Source: a virus. Taken from it: DNA of 31,438 nucleotides. Shown here in pieces: positions 4,911-26,568 of the stretch. How positions within the stretch are numbered: the stretch's first letter is position 1; each line of letters begins with the position of its first letter. The notes beneath the pieces are model-generated. The model ran no database searches. It was not told the origin of the DNA and saw nothing but the letters and a program-made list of their open reading frames with translations. Both the position numbers and the translations under genes were made by a program. The DNA is taken from the IMG/VR virus record IMGVR_UViG_3300044722_000024, positions 1-31,438 of that record. One strand, 5' to 3'.

Positions 4911-6861
4911 ATGGGCGCGATCTCTCCACTCCAGGTCGAGCTCTCGCGGTATTGCTACGACCTGCTCTCGCCCGCGCCCACCATGCAAGTGTGGGAGTGG
5001 GCTGAGGAAAACATCTACCTCAGCGAGCGCACCAGCGCGCTCCCCGGCCGCTTCTCCACGGTCCTCACGCCCTACATCCGCGAGCCGTTGCAGGCGTACT
5101 CGGATAAAAACGTGACGGATCTCGTCCTCTGCTTCGGCACGCAGACGGCCAAGACCACCGTCGTCATGGTCGGCACGGCTTACCGCATCGTGAACGACCC
5201 CACCCCGACCCTGTGGGTGATGCCGAACCTCGACCTGGCCAAGTCGTTCAGCAAGACGCGCTGGCAGCCGATGGTCACCGACTGCAAGCCGCTCGCCGAG
5301 CAGAAGCCTGATGATCGGCATCTCTTCGGCACCACCGAGCAGCACTTCGACAAAGTGACGCTCAACTTCGTGGGCTCGAACAGTCCGTCAAACCTCGCCT
5401 CGAGGCCCGCGGGGCTCTTGAACATGGACGAGACGGACAAGTTCAAGATGGAGTCCGATCGCGAGGCCGGCGCGCTGCAGCTCGCGGAGGAACGCACCAA
5501 GACCTTCGCCTATCCGCTGCGCGTCAAGACGAGCACGCCCACCACGGTCAACGGCGATATCTGGCGCGAGTTCAAACTCGGCGATCAGCGCTACTACCAC
5601 GTCCCCTGCCCGCATTGCTCGCCCAAGATCAAGACCAACCGCAAGCTGCTCATGTGGGATCATCTGACGGCCGAGGAAAGGGAGCTCGTCTCGAAGTCCT
5701 GGATCACGCTCAAGTTCTCCATCGAGAGCAAGGAGCACGGCGATTGCGGCGTCCGCTGGTGGCGCGAGAGCGAGGACGAGGCGAAGACGAACGGCGAGTG
5801 GGACATGGACAAGGTGCGCAAAAACACCTTCTACAAGTGCCAGAACTGCGCCGGCGAAATCTTCGATCATCACAAGCCCGCCATGCTGCGCGCCGGCATT
5901 TGGGTGCCGACGAATACCAACGCAGAACCCGGACGGCGCTCCTACCATCTCAACTCGCTCTACTCCCTGCTCGGCAAGGAGTGCATGCTCGGCGTGATCG
6001 CCGTGAAGTGGCTCCAGACCAAGGGCTCGATGACGAAGCGCCACAACTTCATCAACTCGACCCTCGCCGAGACGTGGGACGACGAGAAGGCCGTGGACGA
6101 CAACCCGATCTTCAAGGAGAGCTACGACAGCCGCGAAATCCTCACGGCCTCGATCGCCGATCGCGTCACCATCATGTCGGTGGACGTGCAGCACGGCCAC
6201 ACCTGGGTGATCGTGCGGCGATGCGAAGCCGAGCAAGGAGAGGCCGAATGGCGAGTCATGGCTGCTCCATGCCGAAAAGGTGATGGGCGGTGTCGAGGAA
6301 CTGCAGCGTATCCAGAGCGAGTATGATGTGCAGTCCAAGCACGTCATTCTCGACGTGGCGCACTTCACCAACACCGTCTCGAAATGGATCGTGGAGAACG
6401 GCTGGCGCGGCGCCTGGGGCGACGACAAGAAGGGATTCATCCACACCGAGCAAAGCGGGCAGCGCGTGATTCGCGTCTATTCGCCGGTACAGTATCGCGA
6501 TCCGCACCTGGGCACGTCCTTCGCCAGCGAGGGCAACGAAAAGGCCCGCTACGTCTTTTGGGCAAACGACCCGATCAAGGATCTGCTCGCCGTCATTCGC
6601 TACAACGAGCCCGTCATCTTCCACGTCCACGCGAACGTGCCGCCGGAGTATCAGCGGCACATGAACGCGGAGATGAAGACGACAAAGCGATCGTTTCAGA
6701 CGAACCGCGTGACCTACTTCTGGAAGCGGCTGCGCAGGGAGAACCACTTGCTCGATGCCGAGTGCATGAACCTCCTGCGCGCACTGCAGCTCGGCTTCGT
6801 GCCGATGCCCGACGAGCAGCCGGCTGCGACGCAACGGACTCTCGATCTGCAGACGGCGTAG
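4911..6861 (+). pseudogene. GpA-type terminase large subunit, split by a frame change
   Basis: The ATG at 4911 follows the small subunit stop by 2 bp with AAGG just before it. The first frame runs to TGA at 6324-6326 (471 residues). Homologous sequence continues in the +1 frame, open from 6211 and ending in TAA at 6859-6861. The joined product would be about 650 residues, normal for the lambda gpA family. The first frame shows an ATPase Walker A-like GTQTAKT at 76-82, Walker B NMDETDKF at 172-178, zinc-ligand pairs C233/C236 and C310/C313, and the nuclease motif SVDVQ at 423-427. The second frame carries WLLHAEKV and ILDVAHFTNTV, the next conserved nuclease segments. The crossover must lie between 6211 and about 6260. 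A one-base insertion (mutation or assembly error) is simplest; programmed +1 shifting is possible but I see no classical signal. Confidence 0.8.
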
Positions 6862-8645: not shown

Positions 8646-8700
8646 TTGAACAATTGCTCCGAAATGTCGTGATCCCAGCCGCCTAGACATCATGGCTGTA

Positions 8701-10111
8701 TGCAACAGCGAGCGACGTCGAATAAAATGAGTGAACGGCAGGGGGCGGTCCGGGGGAGGAGGACAAAGGGAGTGGGCAGTGCGGCAGCGAGACGTGGGCC
8801 GGGGAAGATTGAGCGGAAATGCGCCCCGGCAAGTCGTAACCCGATTGCCTTGAGCATGAAAAAAGCAAACAACGAAAAGAAAGCCGCCACGCCGGACTCG
8901 CTACTCTTCCTCGGTCTGGATGTCCACAAGGAAACCATTGCCGTGGCCGTGGCCGAGAGCGGGCGCGACGGCGAGATCCGATCCCTGGGCTCGATGAGTC
9001 ACGACTTGCACGCGCTGGAAAAGCTTCTGGCCCGGCTGCGCAAGGCGCACGGGGTGGGCAAGGAGCAATTGCGGGTGGTCTATGAGGCGGGGCCGTGCGG
9101 CTACGTGATCGCGCGGCGTCTGGCGCAACTCGGGATCGACTGCGTGGTGGTCGCGCCGTCCTTGATCCCGAAGAAGTCGGGCGAGCGGGTCAAGACCGAC
9201 CGGCGCGACGCGCTCAAGCTGGCCCGGTTGCACCGCGCGGGAGAGTTGCAACCCATCCTGGTGCCCGCGGCCGCCGACGAGGCGGTGCGCGACCTCTGCC
9301 GGGCACGCACCGATGCGGTCAACGACCTGCGCCGTGGCCGCGCCCAGCTCAAGGCCTTCCTGCTGCGTCATGGGTATCGCTATGGCGGCCAGAGCTCGTG
9401 GACGGAGGCGCACCTGCGTTACCTGCGGGAGCTGGTCCTGGGGCACCCGGCGCACAAGGCGGTGCTGGAGGAAAGTTTGCTGGCCATTACCCAGGCAACG
9501 TAAAGGGTGAGCCGGTTTAGTGAACTGATCGAAGCCAACTACAATCAATGGGAACGCCGGCCCTGGTGCGAGGCGCTGATGGCGCTCAAGGGGGTGCAGT
9601 TACTGACCGCCGTCACCCTGGTCGCCGAGATCGGAGACATCACTCGCTTCCAGCATCCGCGGCAGCTGATGGCCTATCTGGGCCTGACCCCGAGCGAATA
9701 CAGCAGCGGCGACAGCCGGCAGCAGGGGCACATCACCAAGTGCGGCAATGAGCACGCGCGCTGGTTCCTGATCGAGGCGGCGCAACACTACGCGCTCACG
9801 CCGAAAGTAAGTCAGGAGTTATCCAAGCGGCAGGCGCCGGTCAGCCCGCGGGTGAGAGAGATAAGCTGGAATGCGCAGACCCGATTGCACCAGCGCTTCC
9901 GGGCCTTGCTGGCACGGGGCAAGTCGCGACAGAAGGCCATCACGGCGATCGCGCGGGAACTGCTCGGTTTCATCTGGGCGCTGTTGCGCGAACATCGCCA
10001 GCCAGGCTCGGTGCCGCCGCGCGTGCTCCGGGAAAAGCCACGACCCCCGCGCCGCTCTGTGCTGTCCCCGGCCGAGCTGATCGCGGCCTGACCTATGTGC
10101 TCGTGCAACAG
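8701..10111 (+). mobile_element. IS110-family insertion sequence
   Basis: The element is defined by its transposase plus the short direct repeat TGCAACAG at 8701-8708 and 10104-10111, which brackets the gene and is my proposed boundary. There are no obvious terminal inverted repeats, as expected for IS110. The left non-coding part (about 8709-8855) is GC-rich and of the length in which IS110-group elements encode a bridge RNA. I could not fold it, so this is only positional. It sits between a minus-strand host- or phage-like gene and the integrase. Confidence 0.65.
8856..10091 (+). pseudogene. IS110 transposase, interrupted by an in-frame TAA
   Basis: Starting at the ATG at 8856, the N-terminal RuvC-like DEDD domain shows D22 (FLGLDVHKE), E77 (VYEAGP), D115 and D118 (KTDRRDALK). 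The reading stops at TAA 9501-9503 (codon 216). The same frame reopens at once and continues to 10091 with the transposase-20 C-terminal domain: LKGVQLLTA, then GLTPSEYSSG with the expected nucleophile serine region, and a basic C-terminus. The joined length of about 411 codons is normal for the family, so the stop looks like a single nonsense substitution (for example GAA to TAA). The copy is probably inactive unless readthrough occurs. An upstream extension of the frame to 8700 is not needed. Confidence 0.85.
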
Positions 10112-10651
10112 TCCAACAATAGCCGGCTATCGTCGGGGCCATGAACGAGGGGGGAACCACGTTTCCCCCGAACCCCCTCCTCTAGGGGGAACATACACCG
10201 CCTCAAGCTAACTCAACCCCTGCCTAACTACGCCAACTAACTAACCAACCAACCTTCACTCCTCGCCACACCTTGTCTGAGAGCCTGTGGTGCCCCGGTG
10301 GCGGCCAAACTCGCGTGGGTCGTTATCGAGCAGCCATCCGAGCTGACCTCAGAGCCTAGAGTGCGAAGCGGGCCACGATGGAAACATGTCAGGCGCTAAC
10401 CAACGCGCGAATAGCAGCATATCCACCATCGAATCTCCAACCCACCGCCCGCAGGCTGGGTCAGTGGCGGGCGGGTCGGCGCGGCGGGCAGCACAGGCTG
10501 TGACAGCCCGGAGCCGTTCGCTGCAGCGGCTGGTTTGGAAAAACAGAACAATCAAGCATCCATCGGCCTTCGCGGGCCATCGGTGGTTCCTGAATCAGAA
10601 GCGGAATACACATCGGAATGCAACGTTTCGACACGGCGACGCAGGAAAGCC
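10092..10651. other. gene-free region between the IS and the integrase
   Basis: 560 bp without a convincing gene. It holds the IS right end, a 12-bp perfect palindrome ATAGCCGGCTAT at 10119-10130, two adjacent GC hairpins at 10149-10169 and 10173-10189, a low-complexity CTAACTAACC-like tract at about 10205-10255, and short inverted repeats near 10440-10510. An attachment site would be expected close to the integrase, but I could not identify one by eye: no tRNA 3' end and no obvious repeat of a window-edge sequence. Confidence 0.5.
10149..10189. repeat. two adjacent, mutually exclusive hairpins
   Basis: GGGGGGAAC (10149-10157) pairs with GTTTCCCCC (10161-10169). CCCCCT (10173-10178) pairs with AGGGGG (10184-10189). 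The second and fourth arms could pair instead. No T run follows. Confidence 0.4.
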
Positions 10652-11851
10652 ATGCGACGCCGGAGCATCATCACCGTTGGAAAAGACCGCGCCGAGATCA
10701 AAATCTACACGCTCCGCCGGCCCAACGGCGTGGCGTCCTACCAGTGCGCCTGGTATGACCTCGGCAAGCGGCAAACCAAGACCTTCGCCGAGATCGAGAA
10801 CGCGAAGTTTTTCGCACAGCAGCAGACTCTCTCGTTGCGCAACGAAGGGAAACCTGTGGCTGATGCTTCGCTGCGGGATGTGGAGACGCTGTGGGCTTGC
10901 GAATCACGCTCTCAACGGTTCGGGCTGACGCTCGTCGCCGCCTTTGATGAATGGTTCTCGGCCAAGTCGGCGCTGAACGGTGGGTCTATAACTGAGGCGG
11001 TCCGCTTTTACTCCGCGCATCATGCGGGACTGCCGAACAAGCCCTTCAGCTTGGTGGCCGAAGAGTTCTACTCCGCGAAGGAAGCGGCGGGCGCGTCATT
11101 TGTCTATTGCCGGAGCCTTCGCCACTACCTCGCACGGATGAAGAAGCCGCTGGGCGCGACTCCGCTCGCCGACATCACCACGCCGCAGATCGATGCCTAC
11201 CTGCGTTCCGAGGCCGGGAACCACACCACTCGCAACAATCTGCGGCGCATCCTGGTCACCGTCTTCCGGTGGGCACAGAAGCAGGGCTATCTCGCCCAGG
11301 ATCGGAAGACGACGCCGGAGCGCGCCATGACGTTCAGCGGACCGGACACAGCGCCCGAGATTTTCACGCCGGATGAATTGCGGAAGATCATCAAGGTTTG
11401 CCCGAAGAACATGCTGCCGCACGTCGTCATTGGCGCATTCTCCGGGATCCGCTCAGCAGAGATTGAGCGGCTGGACTGGCGCGACATCCTTTGGGATCGC
11501 GGATACATCGAGATCAAGGCTGCCAAGGCAAAGACCAAGGCCCGGCGGCTTGTCCCTCTCCTGCCCAATCTTCGCGGGTGGTTGGAGCCGTTGCGGAAAG
11601 ACGAAGGTCCGGTCTGCCACAATCCGAACACTGCAATTCGGTTGAACTACATCGGAGAGAAGGCGGGCTTTGGTTGGCGGCAGAACGCGCTTCGGCACAG
11701 CTTTGCGAGCTATCGACTGGCGGCGGTGGAGGATGCTGCGAAGGTCGCGCTCGAAATGGGCAACAGTCCGCAAATGCTGTTCAAGCACTACCGCGAACTG
11801 GTTGCGCCCGAAGCCGCAGTAGAATGGTTCGCCATCAGTCCGCCGGCTTGA
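10652..11851 (+). CDS. int: tyrosine recombinase / phage integrase
   Basis: 399 residues from the ATG at 10652, which has AGGAAAG just upstream; the frame is open back to 10535 but that part is not coding-like. Residues about 90-225 are the SAM-like core-binding domain and about 235-390 the catalytic domain. Seen there are R267 in FSGIRSAEIERLDW, a basic KAKTKARR loop at 292-299, NALRHSFASY at 345-354 with R348, and HYREL with the nucleophile Y380. The usual histidines of HxxR and GH-x-x are Asn here (N345, N371). Such enzymes catalyse site-specific integration and excision. It is the only integration gene in the window and lies where the plus and minus gene blocks meet. The last 17 bp overlap the convergent DUF4326 gene. 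Confidence 0.85.
   Translation: MRRRSIITVGKDRAEIKIYTLRRPNGVASYQCAWYDLGKRQTKTFAEIENAKFFAQQQTLSLRNEGKPVADASLRDVETLWACESRSQRFGLTLVAAFDEWFSAKSALNGGSITEAVRFYSAHHAGLPNKPFSLVAEEFYSAKEAAGASFVYCRSLRHYLARMKKPLGATPLADITTPQIDAYLRSEAGNHTTRNNLRRILVTVFRWAQKQGYLAQDRKTTPERAMTFSGPDTAPEIFTPDELRKIIKVCPKNMLPHVVIGAFSGIRSAEIERLDWRDILWDRGYIEIKAAKAKTKARRLVPLLPNLRGWLEPLRKDEGPVCHNPNTAIRLNYIGEKAGFGWRQNALRHSFASYRLAAVEDAAKVALEMGNSPQMLFKHYRELVAPEAAVEWFAISPPA
10832..10845. repeat. TCGTT-N4-AACGA palindrome, copy 1
   Basis: Perfect 14-bp palindrome (centre GCGC) inside the integrase gene, read there as SLRNE. Confidence 0.6.
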
Positions 11852-12137: not shown

Positions 12138-12249
12138 GGCTGATCGTAGAGCTAATGCGCCCTGAAGAAATCCAGTCACCCAGATCGGCGCCGGGCGATC
12201 TCGGCAATTCGGTTGCCCGCGCAACGCCGTGCGGACACGATCTAACGAT

Positions 12250-12663
12250 ATGAAGACTTTGTTCACCGCAGAAGCGATCGCCGATGACGGACGTTCGGGC
12301 AGCATCGCCAACCCCGACGGTTTGTTGAATGTCCAGCTCGGCAATCCGCTCAAGCCCGGCGCTGAGAAACGCGGGCCGAGTCCTGAGCTACTCTTCGCCG
12401 GCGCTTATGCGGCGTGCTACCATGGAGCGTTGTTCAATGCGGCGAAGAAACTGGGTACTCCCGCCGAGGGCTCGAAGGTGCGCGCCTTGGTGAGCTTGAT
12501 CGAGGATGACCAGGGCGGCTACCGACTCGCCGTGGAACTGCACGCACAGCTCCCTGGTGTGGACCCCGAGCAGGCGAAACGGGTGATGGAAGCAGCCCAC
12601 GTCACTTGCCCATATTCCAAGGCCCTGCGCGGAGACACTGCTGTGACGCTGGTCGTGGACTAG
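12250..12663 (+). CDS. Ohr/OsmC-family organic hydroperoxide reductase
   Basis: 137 residues from the ATG at 12250. The two redox cysteines are at C56 (AGAYAACYHGA) and C120 (AAHVTCPYSKA), in the contexts typical of Ohr. The SPELLFA motif lies at 44-50 and LAVELHAQLPG at 93-103. Ohr proteins reduce organic peroxides through a Cys-Cys cycle reloaded by lipoyl proteins, and act as dimers in the cytoplasm. The length is normal. It is a metabolic gene between integrase and the tail-coupled glycan cassette, so it is either a moron or a host gene. No MarR-type OhrR regulator is visible nearby. Confidence 0.88.
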   Translation: MKTLFTAEAIADDGRSGSIANPDGLLNVQLGNPLKPGAEKRGPSPELLFAGAYAACYHGALFNAAKKLGTPAEGSKVRALVSLIEDDQGGYRLAVELHAQLPGVDPEQAKRVMEAAHVTCPYSKALRGDTAVTLVVD

Positions 12664-12700: not shown

Positions 12701-13432
12701 TCAGCTCTGAACCCGCCCTGCCCACTGGCACCCACGTCCGCGCAGCCAGAGGTGGTAGATGGCCTCGTTCTTGAAGTAGGAGTTTGCGTATAGATGCGCT
12801 TGCCGCCCGGCGATCATCGCAGCGATGGCGAAGTGAAGCCGGTCGGTGTGGATGACGCGGTAGTTCGATGCGATGCGCAGGTAGACTTCAGCCGTTGCCG
12901 CGAGGACTGCGGGATCTCCGCAGTTCATGGCGACAGCCGGTTGCTGGCGCTCGCAGTCGTCACGCATGAACCAGCCGACGTCATGCTGCGGCTCATGGAG
13001 TTCGATGGCCGGCGCGTAGGCGAGACCGAGATCGGGCGCAAGCACCGCACGCGGGCAGTATTCGAGGCTGCGGTTTTCGCGTGCGAAGAACAGATCGGCT
13101 TCCAAGTCATCGGGGCCGGTCCAGCTTTGCGGCAAGACGATGAGCGGAACGCCGAGCGCGGTAGCGGCGGCGCGCGCATCGAGACGCGTGAGGCGCGTGC
13201 CGGGATAGAGCGGTCCCATGTTTCCCCCGCCGCCGTAGAAGACGACATCGGGCGTCTCGTCTTTTCCGCAGAGGGTGATTCCGTAGGCGGCGTAGAGCTG
13301 CTCGGCGCCGCGGCGGATGAGCAGATCACCCACGTTGCCCGGCCCCCAGTACTCGCGGGCTTTCGCGCGGCGCCAGCGAGCGAAGACGTGGGCGTAGGCA
13401 GCGGGTTCGAGAATCGGCGCGACGATGCTCAT
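12701..13432 (-). CDS. polysaccharide pyruvyl transferase family protein
   Basis: 243 residues. Family signatures in order: NVGD at 33-36, GGGGN at 67-71, IVLPQS at 98-103, and HTDRLHFAIAAMIAG at 195-209, followed by an aromatic segment with K221. These proteins transfer pyruvate from phosphoenolpyruvate as a ketal onto surface-polysaccharide sugars. At 243 residues it is shorter than many members (300 or more), chiefly in the middle. The ATG overlaps the stop of the GT25 gene (ATGA, 13429-13432), so it is the last gene of a coupled cassette that begins in the phage tail operon. The likely role is modification of a glycan on host or virion; the actual acceptor is unknown. Confidence 0.82.
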   Translation of the reverse strand: MSIVAPILEPAAYAHVFARWRRAKAREYWGPGNVGDLLIRRGAEQLYAAYGITLCGKDETPDVVFYGGGGNMGPLYPGTRLTRLDARAAATALGVPLIVLPQSWTGPDDLEADLFFARENRSLEYCPRAVLAPDLGLAYAPAIELHEPQHDVGWFMRDDCERQQPAVAMNCGDPAVLAATAEVYLRIASNYRVIHTDRLHFAIAAMIAGRQAHLYANSYFKNEAIYHLWLRGRGCQWAGRVQS

Positions 13433-14097
13433 GGGTAGAGATGCTGAACGACCGCAGCGCCGTGAATCTGCCGGCCCTCCGTGTCGTAGTTGCTGTAGGT
13501 GTGACCCGTCAGATCCGACGAACCGAGCGCCTGCCAGATGAGATTCGGAAACGCCGCGTAGGTCGGCAGTTTCTTGTGCAGCTTGGAAAGGAGCACGTCG
13601 TTGAACTGCTCGGCGGCACCGCGACCGTGGCGGTGCCCGCGCATGATCTTCCGCACTTCGAGGTAGGCGCTCGCGCGAAAGGCGACGGCGTGCGTGTCGA
13701 GCGCCCGCGCCACGCGGACGAGTCCGGGGCTCACCGGTCTTGGCGTCTCGAGATGCTGGCAGCCGAAGTAGAAGATTTGCCAATCATCCGGGAGCGAGAG
13801 CGCGGCCACTCGCGCGCGGAACTCCGGATGAAACACGGCGTCGTCTTCGAGCACGAGCAGCGCTGGCGAGCGTCGCCGCTCGGCTTGGCGGATGAGAAAA
13901 CGAAACGAGAGGCTGTTGGCCCGGCGCGCAGTGTCCTTGAATCCGCATGGGTGGCGAAGCGTCCGCGCATCGACGGCGCGAACCCACTCAGCGGCCACCC
14001 CCGCGTCGGCCATGCGAGCTTGGAGCCAGGCTCGGCGATCCTGCCGACGCGGGAGGCTGATGAAGGAGCGATGCGGGAAGACGGCGTTGAGGTCCAC
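13429..14097 (-). CDS. glycosyltransferase family 25 protein
   Basis: 222 residues from a GTG at 14097. The N-terminus FISLPRRQDRRAWL at 12-25 and the following WVRAVDARTL are the start of GT25 (LPS glycosyltransferase) domains. The metal-binding LVLEDDAVF is at 81-89 with EDD at 84-86, and a THAVAF motif follows about 60 residues later. Members transfer galactose or related sugars onto lipooligosaccharide, and in eukaryotes onto collagen. Upstream is a 22-bp gap carrying TTGACG; downstream it overlaps the pyruvyl transferase by 4 bp. It is probably cytoplasmic, acting on lipid-linked or protein-linked glycans. Confidence 0.85.
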   Translation of the reverse strand: MDLNAVFPHRSFISLPRRQDRRAWLQARMADAGVAAEWVRAVDARTLRHPCGFKDTARRANSLSFRFLIRQAERRRSPALLVLEDDAVFHPEFRARVAALSLPDDWQIFYFGCQHLETPRPVSPGLVRVARALDTHAVAFRASAYLEVRKIMRGHRHGRGAAEQFNDVLLSKLHKKLPTYAAFPNLIWQALGSSDLTGHTYSNYDTEGRQIHGAAVVQHLYP

Positions 14098-14110
14098 GCC
14101 GTCCGTGAAG

Positions 14111-14116
14111 CGTCAA
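14111..14116 (-). promoter_or_regulatory. TTGACG motif before the GT25 gene
   Basis: 13 nt before the GTG at 14097, in the only gap of the glycan cassette. Confidence 0.35.
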
Positions 14117-14119
14117 CCG

Positions 14120-15013
14120 TTAGAAAGACGCTGCGATGACCGTCGCGGAGCTGTCGGACGACGGTGCCGTCCCGCAGCCTTGCGAACCTGCGAGGCGCGG
14201 CCACGCCGCGAGGAAGCGCGCATAAGCTTCGGGGAAATCCACTGCAAGCCGAGCCTCCGCTTTGGCGATCCATTTGTCCTCGCGCTTCGCGCCTCCGGTG
14301 AGGTGCGCGTAGCCGGCTTTTGCCACTTGCTTCCGCGTTGGTGCGAGCGGCAAGAGCGTGCCGACCTCGACGCCTACGCGCCGGGAAAAAACGCCGAGCT
14401 GATACTGCTCGACAATCATCGAGGTCGAAGTGCCGTTGAGCGCGCAACCGCGGAACTTCTGCGCGAGATCGAGCCCGGCCCACGCGTAGGCCCGCACGAG
14501 CGCCACGTCGCTTCCGCCGAGCAGGCCGGCATTGTAGGCCGCTCCGCCTGGAGCGAAGCCCGCAAGCGCCTGCGCCGCCTGCATCTCGCGCGAGGTGTAG
14601 TAGTGGGGAAAGTCTGGCGACTGCGCGATCAGCCGATGGCGCGTGAGGCGTTTCGGGAGGGGTTTGAAAAGCAGCACGTCGCTGTCGAACTGCACGAACG
14701 GCCGCTCTTGAAGCGCGCAGGCGACGAGTTTGCCGAGCGCCCAGATGTGCGCGAGTCCTTCCGCGGGCCAATCTTCCAGCGCCGTGCTGACCTGCCCAAA
14801 CGGCCAACCCAAGACCGCAGCGATCTCAGCGCCGCGCTTGTCGGTCACGAACTCCGTCTCGGCAAAGACGCGTGCCGCGAGATTCGCGGCGAGCGTTTGG
14901 ATGAGCATCGGCCCTCGTTGCGCAACGAACATTGGCGTCCGCGTCCAAAGGCTCATTACGCCGCGCATGCGGCTCGGTTGGCGGATGGATTTTTGAGAAG
15001 GTAAATCGCTCAC
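14120..15013 (-). CDS. DxD-containing glycosyltransferase-like protein
   Basis: 297 residues; the start is GTG, overlapping the stop of the nucleotidyltransferase gene as GTGA (15010-15013). FVQFDSDVLLF at 106-116 has the D110-x-D112 pair expected of a GT-A fold, followed about 40 residues later by GGAAYNAGLLGG, a motif seen in GT-A enzymes where Asn/Asp near the acceptor pocket follow DxD. It has no membrane helix. I cannot name the GT family. The coupling to the upstream nucleotidyltransferase and the downstream GT25 gene suggests one glycan pathway. ATGs at 14968, 14956 and 14932 (codons 16, 20 and 28) are alternative starts. Confidence 0.7.
   Translation of the reverse strand: MSDLPSQKSIRQPSRMRGVMSLWTRTPMFVAQRGPMLIQTLAANLAARVFAETEFVTDKRGAEIAAVLGWPFGQVSTALEDWPAEGLAHIWALGKLVACALQERPFVQFDSDVLLFKPLPKRLTRHRLIAQSPDFPHYYTSREMQAAQALAGFAPGGAAYNAGLLGGSDVALVRAYAWAGLDLAQKFRGCALNGTSTSMIVEQYQLGVFSRRVGVEVGTLLPLAPTRKQVAKAGYAHLTGGAKREDKWIAKAEARLAVDFPEAYARFLAAWPRLAGSQGCGTAPSSDSSATVIAASF
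14915..14928. repeat. TCGTT-N4-AACGA palindrome, copy 2
   Basis: Perfect 14-bp palindrome (centre GCGC), inside the DxD glycosyltransferase gene, read on the minus strand as FVAQRG. Confidence 0.6.
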
Positions 15014-22440: not shown

Positions 22441-24045
22441 TTAGCCAAAGGCCGGTGTCAGCGTCGGCGTCTTGGCCGGCGGGCGATCAAGCAGTCGCTT
22501 CACGTCGCGGAGCAGGCCGGTCTGCGTCCCGAGTTCGCGCGTCTGCCGCTGCTGCTCGCGGAGCATCGGGTCGCCATTGCTGTAAGCCGCGCCGCCGCCA
22601 CCGATGCGCTGGATCGCGGATACCGCGTTCTTCACGGTCTTCTCCGGCTTGCCTTCGCCGTCATCGAGGTTGAGCTGCGGTCCGGTGGCCTTCTTCGGCT
22701 CCACGTCAGCGCGCGCCTGCGCGGAGACTCTCTCCACCCGATCCATCACGCCGCCGATGCTGTCGCTGAGCTGCGATTCCAAATCGCTCGTGTCGATGAG
22801 CGAACTGCCTTTCTCGAAGCCCTCGCTGAGCGCACTGCCTATGTTTGCAAAGGTCGCGCGCATCCGCTCCGCCGCTCGATCCACTTGCGGGCCGAGCAGG
22901 TCGCCCGCGTCGCCGCGATTATCCTGACCGGCCTCGCGGAAGCCCTGCGCCGTCTCTCGCACAGCCTTCGCGCCGTCGCCGATCTCATCGCCGATGAGCG
23001 GAGTATCCGCGAGGAATTCGAGCAGCTTCGCGACACCGTCCAGGAGCAACGCGACGAAGCCTTGCGCGATGCCCGTGATCGCTTTGCCCATGCCGATCCA
23101 GAAGTCAGCCGAGGTGACGATCTGGAAAAGCGTGATGGCATTCTTTACCGCCTCAACCAGCGCCTGCCAAAGCGCCTGCGCCACGGCCATCAGCGTGCCC
23201 GCGAGAAAGTTCACCGCGTTGGCAAAGGCGATCTTCGCGGAGGTGAAAAGGATGTCGCCGACTTTGCCGTCCGCGAACGCCTGGACGATGAACGCCACCG
23301 CTTCACCGGCCTTTTGCCCCCAGCTCGCGAGGTCGAGCGAGGCGAACTTGTCGAGCAGCGGCTTGAGCACCGGCGCAACCTTCTCCGCCACGCCGACCCA
23401 GAACCCCCGCACCTTCAGTCCGCTCAATGCGAGCTTGTCGCCGACGTCATCGAAGAGCGCTGCATCTTTGGCGAGGATCTGAGCTTGGGAGCCGACCTGG
23501 CTCGCCGCATCGCCGAAGCCATCGGACGAAAAGAGCGAAAGCAACTCCGCACCGCTGCGCCCGAAAATCTCCATCGACGCCGCGGCCTTCTGCGACGGGT
23601 CTTGGATGGTGTTGATCGCCGCACCGAGTGTGCGGAACTGCTCCGCGGGCGTCTTCTTCTTTAGCCCCTCGAGATTGATCCCAAGCTTCTTGATCGTGTC
23701 GTCCGCCGAGCCGCCTTGCAGCGTCTTCGCCATTTTGCCGAACACCGGCCCGATGTCCGCCGCGGACTTGCCTGCGTTGGCGAACTCCTGCTGCAACACG
23801 ACAAGATCGGCTACGGCGATGCCTGTGTTCGCCGAGAGATCATTGAGTTGCCCGCCAACGTCGAGCGCCTGCTTGAAACGGTCGAACCCCGCCGTCACCA
23901 CTCCCGCCGCCGCACGGATGGCAATGAACGCGACGGCGAACTTCGCGATGCGCGATTGCAGCGCGAGCATCTTGCCGTTGATGCGCGCGAGTGCCCCGCT
24001 CAGGCGGCTGTCGTCGGCATCGAATACGGCGGTGGCTTTCGGCAT
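22441..24045 (-). CDS. phage tail tape measure protein
   Basis: 534 residues. The N-terminal 200 residues are helical with the repeated small-residue pattern of tape measure proteins, including a conserved-looking stretch around AAINTIQDPSQKAAASMEIFGRSG (the TMP 'G-R-S-G-A-E-L' region). Several hydrophobic helices lie between about 255 and 365 (VGDILFTSAKIAFANAV, ALWQALVEAV, IGMGKAITGIAQGFVALLL). Coiled-coil and Gln/Arg-rich segments follow. Tape measure proteins set tail length and are ejected into the host. The position after the G/GT chaperone genes is canonical, although a moron and a tRNA intervene. TTGACG lies 14 nt before the ATG. Confidence 0.85.
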   Translation of the reverse strand: MPKATAVFDADDSRLSGALARINGKMLALQSRIAKFAVAFIAIRAAAGVVTAGFDRFKQALDVGGQLNDLSANTGIAVADLVVLQQEFANAGKSAADIGPVFGKMAKTLQGGSADDTIKKLGINLEGLKKKTPAEQFRTLGAAINTIQDPSQKAAASMEIFGRSGAELLSLFSSDGFGDAASQVGSQAQILAKDAALFDDVGDKLALSGLKVRGFWVGVAEKVAPVLKPLLDKFASLDLASWGQKAGEAVAFIVQAFADGKVGDILFTSAKIAFANAVNFLAGTLMAVAQALWQALVEAVKNAITLFQIVTSADFWIGMGKAITGIAQGFVALLLDGVAKLLEFLADTPLIGDEIGDGAKAVRETAQGFREAGQDNRGDAGDLLGPQVDRAAERMRATFANIGSALSEGFEKGSSLIDTSDLESQLSDSIGGVMDRVERVSAQARADVEPKKATGPQLNLDDGEGKPEKTVKNAVSAIQRIGGGGAAYSNGDPMLREQQRQTRELGTQTGLLRDVKRLLDRPPAKTPTLTPAFG

Positions 24046-24065: not shown

Positions 24066-24083
24066 CTGAGCCTCAATTCAGAC

Positions 24084-24389
24084 ATGATTCTTGAAGTAGC
24101 CATTTTCAATGTTCGGGACGGTGCAAGCGAAGCGTTCGAGGCGGCGTTCCGCGAGGCATCGCCGATCATCGCGTCGATGCCTGGCTACGTTTCGCACGAG
24201 CTGCGGCACTGCATCGAGCGTCCCAGCCGCTACATCCTGCTGGTGCATTGGCGGCGGCTCGAAGATCACACGGTCGGCTTCCGACAGTCTGCGGAATATC
24301 AGCAGTGGCGCGCTTTGCTGCACCACTTCTACGACCCTTTCCCTACCGTGGAGCATTACGGCGAGGCGCTTCTCCCCAATCCCGAGTGA
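24084..24389 (+). CDS. antibiotic biosynthesis monooxygenase (ABM)-fold protein, moron
   Basis: 101 residues from the ATG at 24084. The pattern MILEVAIFNVRDGASEAFEA, a small-residue turn and GYVSHELRHCIERPSRYILL, then a tryptophan and EDHTVGFRQSAEYQQWRALL is the ABM/Dabb-type ferredoxin-like fold. Such small dimeric proteins act on quinones or other aromatics or serve other roles; the reaction here is unknown. It is the only plus-strand gene inside the minus-strand tail operon and starts 38 bp from the tape measure start. It ends 1 bp from the tRNA 3' end. This layout suggests a moron. The longer frame to 23991 overlaps the tape measure gene and is not needed. Confidence 0.75.
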   Translation: MILEVAIFNVRDGASEAFEAAFREASPIIASMPGYVSHELRHCIERPSRYILLVHWRRLEDHTVGFRQSAEYQQWRALLHHFYDPFPTVEHYGEALLPNPE

Positions 24390-24390
24390 T

Positions 24391-24465
24391 TGGTTGCGGA
24401 GGCCGGACTCGAACCGACGACCTCCAGCGCATGAGGCTGGCGAGCTGCCGCTGCTCTACCCCGCG
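24391..24465 (-). tRNA. tRNA-Met (CAU), initiator-like
   Basis: The 75-nt cloverleaf runs from 24465 to 24391 on the minus strand with encoded CCA. Acceptor stem 24465-24459 with 24401-24395, D arm GAGC/GCTC, anticodon stem CCAGC/GCTGG with loop CTCATGC, variable AGGTC and T arm GTCGG/CCGGC with loop TTCGAGT. The anticodon is CAT. The first acceptor pair is a C-A mismatch and the D stem has A11-U24, two hallmarks of bacterial initiator tRNA. The third hallmark, three G-C pairs before the anticodon loop, is absent (pairs A-U, G-C, C-G), and position 37 is G. It lies within the late operon, 14 nt after the stop of the upstream tail gene. Confidence 0.88.
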
Positions 24466-24479
24466 ATTTTCGGGGCCGG

Positions 24480-25145
24480 TTACTTCCAGCCCGCTGCTCG
24501 CAGGGCGCGTGTCAAAAGGAACTCCGCCCGCCGCTGCATCTTCCTTCCCTGGATGTTGATGGCCGACTGGATGCGGCGGTCGTAGGCGTCCACCTTCGTC
24601 ACGTATTTTACCGCGTTGGTGAGGATGATGCGGAAGACGCGGAATGTGTTGATGACCGCGGCGGAGCTACGGGCGGAGCCGTGGCGCGCGACCCACGCGG
24701 GCAGTTTCAAGCCGAGCTTCTGCGCGCCTGCATTCCAGCCGGCGGCGAGTTCGCCGACACGCTTGAGCAGTTCGCGTTTGAGGACACGCAAAGCCGATGC
24801 GTCCACCGGATACGGCTGCTTCAAATTGCGCGGATTGATTCGGCCGGTGTTCGGATCGCGGAGGCGTTTGTGGATCTCCGCTGGGTCGGCCAGCTTCACG
24901 CCTTTCTTGCCAGCTGCGGCGACCATCACGCGGGCGAGATCGGCGATGATGGCGCCCTCGCCGGCCTTCTTCGCTGCGCTGCCGCGCTTGCCCTTCGACG
25001 CGGGCGGCGTGATGGCGACGACTTCCTTCACGAAACCGCGCGCGGCTTCCTCGGCGAGTTCGCGCCGGGATTTCTTCATCTGCGGCGCGAGCGCCTTGAT
25101 GCCGCGCTGGATGGGCTTCAGATCAAAACGCAGGCGTCCGTTCAT
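24480..25145 (-). CDS. minor tail / tail-completion protein (putative)
   Basis: 221 residues, strongly basic, with helices at residues about 1-45 (MKKSRRELAEEAA), 60-75 and 115-150 and a conserved-looking RGF-like start. The pattern resembles small basic tail-completion or minor tail proteins that sit before tape measure genes, but I cannot name a family. The ATG at 25145 overlaps the end of the GT extension frame by 23 bp. The gene is followed by the tRNA. Confidence 0.5.
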   Translation of the reverse strand: MNGRLRFDLKPIQRGIKALAPQMKKSRRELAEEAARGFVKEVVAITPPASKGKRGSAAKKAGEGAIIADLARVMVAAAGKKGVKLADPAEIHKRLRDPNTGRINPRNLKQPYPVDASALRVLKRELLKRVGELAAGWNAGAQKLGLKLPAWVARHGSARSSAAVINTFRVFRIILTNAVKYVTKVDAYDRRIQSAINIQGRKMQRRAEFLLTRALRAAGWK

Positions 25146-25793
25146 TGGGCCTCCAATTGGTCAGCAACGTTTCGAGCTGGTGCGTGGCGGGCGGTGCGAC
25201 CGGCACGGTCCAGACATCGTGCGCCCGCAGCGCGCAGTGCTGGTATTGCAGGAGCCGCGAGAGCGGCAGCTCCCAGAAGATGAAGTGCTCAGACCAAGCG
25301 GTTTCTCGCGCCAGTGTGAAGACGAAACTCGCCGTCCACACCGGCTCGATCAGTTTGGGGGCGGGGTCGGTTCTTTGCCGCTGCCCTTCGGACGCGCAAC
25401 GACTTCGATCTGCGCGGCTTCGATGGCAGTGAGGTTGTTCTCGAGTTGCGCCATCGCGGTGAACATTGCCGTCACCGGCAGCTCCATCTCGAAGGGCAGC
25501 AAGTATTCATCCTCGAATGCCTGGCGATCTTCCCGCGCGAGCTTCACGGCTTTCTTCACCACGTCGAGCGGCTGCGATTGGATGAACAGGAAAGTGGTGA
25601 GTTGCCGCTGCTTGTCGTCGGCGGAGAGCACTTCGACCTGCTCCTTGTCGCCGCCTACGACCATAGTGAGGCCGAGCGCGCGGCAGATTGTAAGTGTGCC
25701 TGCCGAGAAGGGCCGCAGCGTGATTCCGCCGGCTTCGGTCGTGGGCGCGATGAACGTGTCGAGGTTGGTTTGCGTGCGTTCGTCGGTGTTCAT
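25123..25793 (-). CDS. tail assembly chaperone, frameshifted GT-type product
   Basis: Translation of the G-like gene followed by a -1 shift at 25353-25359 reads through the TGA and adds 76 residues ending in TGA at 25123-25125, total 223. The extension (LIEPVWTASFVFTLARE and onward) is rich in aromatics and ends 23 bp inside the next gene. In lambda, gpG and gpGT are made in a fixed ratio and GT bridges tape measure and tube protein during tail assembly. The extension frame has a possible GTG start at 25341, but no ribosome-binding site, which favours frameshifting. Confidence 0.8.
25350..25793 (-). CDS. tail assembly chaperone, G-type product
   Basis: 147 residues from the ATG at 25793, overlapping the upstream stop (25790-25793). 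A helical, acidic protein, with LREDRQAFEDEYLLPFEMELP-like helix in the second half, ending in a proline-rich tail just after the slippery codons. It is positioned between the tail tube candidate and the tape measure gene, as gpG is in lambda. The TGA follows directly after the slippery heptamer. Confidence 0.75.
   Translation of the reverse strand: MNTDERTQTNLDTFIAPTTEAGGITLRPFSAGTLTICRALGLTMVVGGDKEQVEVLSADDKQRQLTTFLFIQSQPLDVVKKAVKLAREDRQAFEDEYLLPFEMELPVTAMFTAMAQLENNLTAIEAAQIEVVARPKGSGKEPTPPPN
25353..25359 (-). promoter_or_regulatory. -1 slippery heptamer C CCA AAC
   Basis: The heptamer CCCAAAC is in the correct zero-frame phase (X XXY YYZ) and is followed immediately by the zero-frame TGA at 25350-25352. 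The -1 frame then continues for 76 codons. Confidence 0.8.
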
Positions 25794-26233
25794 TTTTCGA
25801 GGGCGGTGAGGAGTTCCTGGCGGCGTTCTGGCGTTGCGTCGAAGGGCACGAGCGCGAACCGCTGGCCTTTGCGAATCAGCGCAACGGGAGCCAGTCGCCC
25901 GATTTCCGCCGCGAGCAGGCCCGCGTTGCGGAAGGCGGTCGTAATGTAGGCAAACGGGTGCTCGGCGTTCTGCGTCGTCCACACCGGATCGTGCCAGGCT
26001 TCGATGAGCTTTCGTGCATCATGCTGGCCGCAGATGCTCTTGGCTTTGAGCGTCCACGTCACCAGCCGCCGCTCCACGCCTTCCACCAGTTCGCGCGTTT
26101 CGAGATACGGACAATCGTCATCAAGCGGAATGCCGATGGCCGTGAGCGCGGCCACGAGCCGCAGGAGGTTGAGCGCGTCCGCGTCGGTCTTTACCTCGGC
26201 GCGCAGGATGCAGAGTTGGTCGCCTTTTCGCAT
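25790..26233 (-). CDS. tail-region hypothetical protein
   Basis: 147 residues from the ATG at 26233, 2 bp after the upstream TGA (26236-26238). Mixed alpha/beta, with a cysteine pair far apart (C8, C42) and a tryptophan-rich middle (VTWTLKAKSICGQH). It overlaps the G-type gene by 4 bp. Its place between the tube protein and the chaperone suggests a tail-completion role; no family recognised. Confidence 0.5.
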   Translation of the reverse strand: MRKGDQLCILRAEVKTDADALNLLRLVAALTAIGIPLDDDCPYLETRELVEGVERRLVTWTLKAKSICGQHDARKLIEAWHDPVWTTQNAEHPFAYITTAFRNAGLLAAEIGRLAPVALIRKGQRFALVPFDATPERRQELLTALEK

Positions 26234-26235
26234 AA

Positions 26236-26568
26236 TCAGTTCACGGCCTCCGCCGTCGGGTAGTGTTTGAAGCTGTATTCCCAGCCGTCGAAGTCCTCGT
26301 TGTTCTCGTTCTGCTTCACGTTCGTGATGACCGTGACGCCGCCGTTGGGCAGGCCGCTCACGCCGGGATCGCCGACGCCAGGCACCACGGCGAGCGCACC
26401 GTGGCCCTTGACCGAGCCTTCCGTCATTTTGCGATACGGCTTCACACGGGCGATTTCGCCGTCGCTGCCTGGGAGTTCCTTCACCTGCACGCTGTCGTCG
26501 GTTTCCACCGAATCAATGAGTGTGCCGGCGTGGCGGCTGATGCCGAATTTAACGTCGTTGGCGGGCAT
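26236..26568 (-). CDS. major tail tube protein (candidate)
   Basis: 110 residues from the ATG at 26568. Strand-rich and acidic, with many Gly/Val turns (LAVVPGVGDPGVSG) and an aromatic end (DGWEYSFKHYP). Size, composition and its place before the G/GT chaperone match short tail tube proteins, but no motif proves it. TTGACA lies 13 nt upstream. Confidence 0.5.
   Translation of the reverse strand: MPANDVKFGISRHAGTLIDSVETDDSVQVKELPGSDGEIARVKPYRKMTEGSVKGHGALAVVPGVGDPGVSGLPNGGVTVITNVKQNENNEDFDGWEYSFKHYPTAEAVN

Follow-up and report, generated by a model that had tools for sequence, protein, structure and literature searches.

A probable tail assembly chaperone gene with a predicted -1 frameshift in a phage or prophage of Verrucomicrobiota

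Making two tail assembly chaperones from one gene by a -1 ribosomal frameshift is a well-known and conserved trick of tailed viruses. IMG/VR virus record IMGVR_UViG_3300044722_000024 contains a short gene whose frame ends on a slippery sequence, and we asked whether this gene is expressed in the same way and whether its products are tail chaperones. The window referred to below is the whole stretch of DNA that was analysed, 31,438 nt in length.

A two-frame gene ahead of the tape measure gene

The zero-frame ORF begins with ATG at 25793–25791 and its 3′ end on the minus strand reads CCG CCC CCA AAC TGA. Following a -1 slip, the first codon would be CTG at 25353, and the frame then stays open for 76 codons up to TGA at 25125–25123. 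Joining the zero frame to the extension in this way gives a predicted product of 223 aa. The extension overlaps the next gene, which starts with ATG at 25145, by 23 bp. The original prediction had given the CCC CCA AAC TGA end, its phase, products of 147 and 223 residues, the 76 codons and the 23 bp overlap, and every one of these proved exact on re-reading. The features of the region are:

26236–26568, minus strand: tail tube candidate, 110 aa, proposed from position only; a conserved neighbour
25790–26233, minus strand: upstream gene, 147 aa, a conserved neighbour whose 3′ bases overlap the chaperone start
25350–25793, minus strand: zero-frame ORF, candidate G-like chaperone, 147 aa plus TGA, with homologues
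25353–25359, minus strand: slippery heptamer C_CCA_AAC in X_XXY_YYZ phase, read from the sequence and present as XXXAAAC in 19 of 19 clade loci
25350–25352, minus strand: zero-frame TGA, which abuts the 3′ end of the heptamer and doubles as nt 1–3 of the spacer
25123–25353, minus strand: T-like extension in the -1 frame, 76 codons plus TGA, supported by pS/pN
24480–25145, minus strand: next gene, 221 aa, a conserved clade neighbour overlapping the extension by 23 bp
22441–24045, minus strand: tape measure protein gene (PHROG 9483, E 1.7e-13; gene order conserved)

The gene order is portal, protease, major capsid, head closure, tube candidate, 147-aa gene, the two-frame pair, 221-aa gene and tape measure, and it is maintained in relatives. 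The original placement, with the tube candidate on one side of the pair and the tape measure gene on the other, holds for the order; neither flank is adjacent, however, as the 147-aa gene (25790–26233) separates the tube candidate from the chaperone gene, and the 221-aa gene, a tRNA-Met gene and a plus-strand ORF lie between the pair and the tape measure gene. The tube candidate matched nothing in Pfam or PHROG. The tRNA-Met(CAT) gene occupies 24391–24465 (minus strand) between the 221-aa and tape measure genes, and beside it is the plus-strand ORF (24081–24389), which carries an antibiotic biosynthesis monooxygenase domain (PF03992). Three relatives (L002, L030 and L031) also have a tRNA-Met gene downstream of the pair; none was found in the other scanned loci, some of which end early. 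This may be a site where cargo lands.

Slippery sequences of this kind are scarce in the window. In 17 genes on the same strand, X_XX(AAA/TTT)N heptamers occur in slip phase at 2 of 4,894 positions, one of them being the chaperone site. The chance of such a heptamer within 11 random codons is 0.007, rising to 0.04 if the protein end is held and the codons are redrawn. Conservation of the site among relatives is much stronger evidence than these odds.

Other parts of the window also hold split or unusual genes. The terminase large subunit gene (GpA, 4911–6861, plus strand) apparently departs from its frame near 6230–6280: the ORF at 4911–6326 covers the ATPase plus the beginning of the nuclease, and 6280–6861 apparently continues in the +1 frame. 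The break may reflect a programmed shift, decay or an assembly error; one IMG/VR scan with the second part returned no relatives. An IS110-type transposase (8700–10091, plus strand) is seemingly spread over ORFs 8700–9503 (PF01548) and 9507–10091. Genes for a DUF6734 protein, a glycosyltransferase-25-like protein (below cut-off) and an OsmC-like protein lie near the integrase gene (10535–11851), at 13429–15013 (minus strand) and 12229–12663 (plus strand), and are probably cargo or host sequence.

Relatives of the pair and the proteins they encode

Searches with the zero-frame protein and then with the extension turned up relatives in IMG/VR and on four genome contigs of Verrucomicrobiota, including ones from Chthoniobacter flavus Ellin428 and a Prosthecobacter MAG. 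The closest clade comprises 19 loci from Verrucomicrobiota phages or prophages, C. flavus among them and several of them near duplicates, which by our own reading represent about eight separable lineages. Both frames are kept in these loci, and in 19 of 19 an XXXAAAC heptamer is followed at once by a stop, as CCCAAAC-TGA, CCCAAAC-TAA, GGGAAAC-TGA or GGGAAAC-TAA. Exchange of CCC for GGG changes the -1 frame residue from P to G, and the homopolymer is retained regardless, as would follow from the need of the slip for a homopolymer. The comparison thus kept both frames and the heptamer, and the homologues that could have counted against a frameshift, lacking one or the other, were sought and not found in this clade.

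A search of 388 genomes across the phylum added nine credible relatives besides C. flavus, together with a tenth hit, L044, that was rejected as a chance match. In-phase heptamers in the nine are CCCAAAC (two loci), GGGAAAG, AAAAAAC (two), GGGAAAC and AAAAAAG (two), and L040 has none. The zero-frame part of the GGGAAAC locus (L042) is short and was not recognised. An abutting stop, invariant in the closest clade, recurs in the distant L038 and L041. With one of the phylum-wide relatives as query we reached a sister clade of 80 IMG/VR loci. An in-phase heptamer is present in 77 of these, AAAAAAG in 75 of the 77, with the zero-frame stop 27 nt further on in most. The other three carry the extension twice; the match in each is the second copy, and the usual junction is present at the first one. 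Duplication of the extension is seen in L071, L073 and L074, where a normal junction and first T copy come before an apparent G-tail remnant and, in a different frame, another T copy that has no recognisable heptamer of its own. A single IMG/VR scan found 127 loci coding for relatives of the extension; scanning with the extension of L037 gave no match, and a tblastn search of 50,697 phage records with the extension as query found none at E 1.

In L040, from a Verrucomicrobiota genome, G and T occupy a single 214-aa frame (reverse strand, 1087–1731) with the same neighbours and no heptamer. This fusion shows that the two parts belong together. Only the long form is therefore expected from L040, barring another mechanism for making the short one.

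Profile searches gave little help in naming the proteins. Both parts and their relatives, scanned against Pfam and PHROG, returned chance-level matches only and no family, lambda G and T (each as a single sequence) had no significant match to the profiles, a PDB sequence search found no match, and Foldseek and VIA-align against the PDB gave no useful one. AlphaFold2 models the first part as mostly helical with a disordered end (mean pLDDT 73) and the extension as four helices (mean pLDDT 78). Tail assembly chaperones, N15 GT included, are among the top named matches of the G model in a Foldseek search of BFVD; the best E of 0.015 is weak. For the T model the top BFVD match, also weak (E 1.2), is a phage Mica tape measure chaperone of 137 aa; a joined gene of the same length in the Mica record is labelled as the frameshift product. 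The extension profile likewise weakly matches the Mica frameshift frame (15.8 bits, motif LA..TGWSE).

These results bear on whether the pair, taken as a true -1 frameshift gene, might encode some other tail protein, such as a tube protein with a C-terminal domain. Frameshifts are used by other phage structural genes too (PMC5009743), and the profiles of known tail chaperone families do not match the pair. This identity is nevertheless quite improbable given the site of the pair just ahead of the tape measure block, the alpha-helical model with its disordered link, and the tail chaperones near the top of the named fold matches. We favour a tail chaperone because of the synteny, the two-frame design, the in-frame fusion in L040 and the weak fold matches taken together.

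A predicted hairpin and the frame that follows it

Beginning 7 nt past the heptamer is a predicted hairpin that had escaped the original prediction:

25310–25345, minus strand: predicted stimulatory hairpin, 11 bp, a bulged C and 5 bp, supported by folding, covariation and synonymous suppression

Its position falls within the 5–9 nt range expected of a downstream stimulatory structure. In the window, the 60 nt past the heptamer fold at -29.2 kcal/mol (z -3.6), and relatives give the same fold with z from -2.3 to -4.1. An alignment of 14 distinct sequences has 93% of cells paired and two-sided changes at 5 of 16 pairs; 0 of 500 shuffles score as high for covariation, and pairing is 39–48% in slid registers. 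Our first count of pairs, on 15 sequences, gave marginal covariation, which became clear with L126–L128 included and without the weak outer 3 bp. Three adjacent stem positions are changed in L126 with all pairs of the 11-bp stem retained, and L021 combines the same 5′ arm with an alternative 3′ arm. A hairpin is also found at 6 nt in the distant L041 (z -4.2). The related genome loci L035 and L036 give z of -1.2 and -2.4, and the three AAAAAAG members of the sister clade that were folded (L045, L079 and L112) have no such hairpin (z -0.7 to +1.1).

Two other stimulators were considered and rejected. A pseudoknot between the hairpin loop and a downstream GAAAC is not kept, as the loop is GAGTTTC or GAGCTTC while GAAAC is constant. 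Shine-Dalgarno-like letters upstream (AAGGA-like) are present in some relatives and absent from the window.

Past the hairpin, the -1 frame of the closest clade has a pS of 0.48 and a pN of 0.039, and pN is the higher of the two values in both other frames. The extension thus evolves as a protein in the -1 frame only. Over its codons 1–16 synonymous divergence falls to 0.09, which points to a second constraint acting at the level of RNA. Values of pS and pN for the zero frame upstream of the heptamer, and the nucleotide-variability rows, are inflated by ungapped linker indels and were not used.

The same stretch bears on whether the extension could be a separate gene, translated by coupled re-initiation beyond the TGA; one possible start is the -1 frame GTG of "VWT". 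That GTG lies six codons into the -1 reading, and a stop close to a possible restart would suit such coupling. We consider it very unlikely. The GTG is buried in the hairpin stem with no Shine-Dalgarno-like sequence ahead of it, and the residues K, L, E and P that precede it are kept with synonymous third-position changes (CTG to CTA, ATC to ATT). The CCC or GGG homopolymer before AAA is also kept, which re-initiation would not need, and both parts share one frame in L040. A chance overlap, or a sequencing error splitting one gene of the in-frame kind seen in L040, has negligible probability and is on the comparative data already refuted by the recurrence of the same split and motif in many independent contigs, cultured and uncultured, and by the covarying RNA structure.

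Proposed mechanism and comparison with known systems

Two-frame expression as a tail chaperone gene is the account that best fits these observations. With a probability of about 0.88, comparative sequence evidence leads us to read the locus as a tail assembly chaperone gene of a long-tailed Verrucomicrobiota phage or prophage, producing a 147-aa G-like protein and, by -1 slip, a 223-aa GT-like protein. The G/GT-type frameshift of the original prediction is thereby supported by the relatives. Counting against this reading are the missing family match, the weak fold E-values, the weakness of XXXAAAC heptamers in E. coli, the shiftless L040 and the intervening 221-aa gene. Most ribosomes would terminate at the TGA to give the G-like protein. 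The hairpin 7 nt downstream would slow ribosomes, and a minority would slip back on C_CCA_AAC, with Pro-tRNA re-pairing from CCA to CCC and Asn-tRNA from AAC to AAA, to yield the GT-like fusion. By analogy with lambda (PMC5009743), many G-like and few GT-like copies would cover the tape measure protein and bring in tube subunits.

How the presumed slip rate is set may differ between the clades. In E. coli, X_XXA_AAG heptamers are efficient; A_AAA_AAC and G_GGA_AAC, although IS elements use them, are weak (PMC4066793). The suggestion that a CCCAAAC heptamer directly abutting the stop might raise the shift ratio finds no support, XXXAAAC heptamers being of low efficiency in that host (PMC4066793). 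Since XXXAAAC is weak in E. coli and the three folded AAAAAAG members of the sister clade have no such hairpin, the hairpin probably compensates for the weak heptamer and supplies efficiency; bacterial hosts differ in their tRNAs. The abutting stop, a fixed trait of the clade, may matter in some way other than raising the ratio. A tentative idea, which we rate as rather doubtful, is that weak XXXAAAC, abutting stop and hairpin form one ratio-setting unit, in which the hairpin compensates or the A-site stop itself promotes or gates slipping. If the stop did act in this way, the short-to-long ratio would be coupled to release-factor supply.

With this locus the conserved tail-chaperone frameshift would also include phages of the phylum Verrucomicrobiota, few of which have been studied, and a protein family outside Pfam and PHROGs gains a probable function. 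The sister clades provide a natural contrast between a weak heptamer with hairpin and abutting stop and a strong heptamer without such a hairpin, which makes phage tuning of the G:GT ratio directly testable.

The closest parallel in design is lambda gpG/gpGT (slippery GGGAAAG), which likewise has a two-frame chaperone gene ahead of the tape measure gene, a -1 slip close to where the first frame ends and an extension overlapping the next gene. The likeness goes further in the sister-clade locus L050, where the extension and the tape measure gene are immediate neighbours, like T and H. Unlike lambda, the window has an XXXAAAC site with an abutting stop and an additional 221-aa gene before the tape measure gene, and lambda as a single-sequence query has no detectable sequence relation to the pair. 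The clade of the window also has a conserved downstream hairpin; shifts of certain tailed phages are said to occur without stimulators (review PMC5009743, citing lambda work), and predicted hairpins are present in some other phage clusters (PMC4066793). A second parallel is the P2-like pair of Burkholderia phage Mica (CPT_Mica_022/023). Mica is contractile-tailed and has no heptamer in common with the window, and its first part is annotated as PF10109, to which the window protein has no match. Its annotated tape measure chaperone and frameshift product nevertheless adjoin the tape measure gene, and the latter, the top fold match of the T-like extension, has the motif "LA..TGWSE..Il" in common with it. 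Signals of the IS-element and dnaX type serve other genes and products, and differ in that the zero-frame stop of the window abuts the heptamer. They resemble it in pairing a slippery heptamer with a stem-loop a few bases downstream, and in IS elements low-efficiency AAAC heptamers are likewise in use (PMC4066793).
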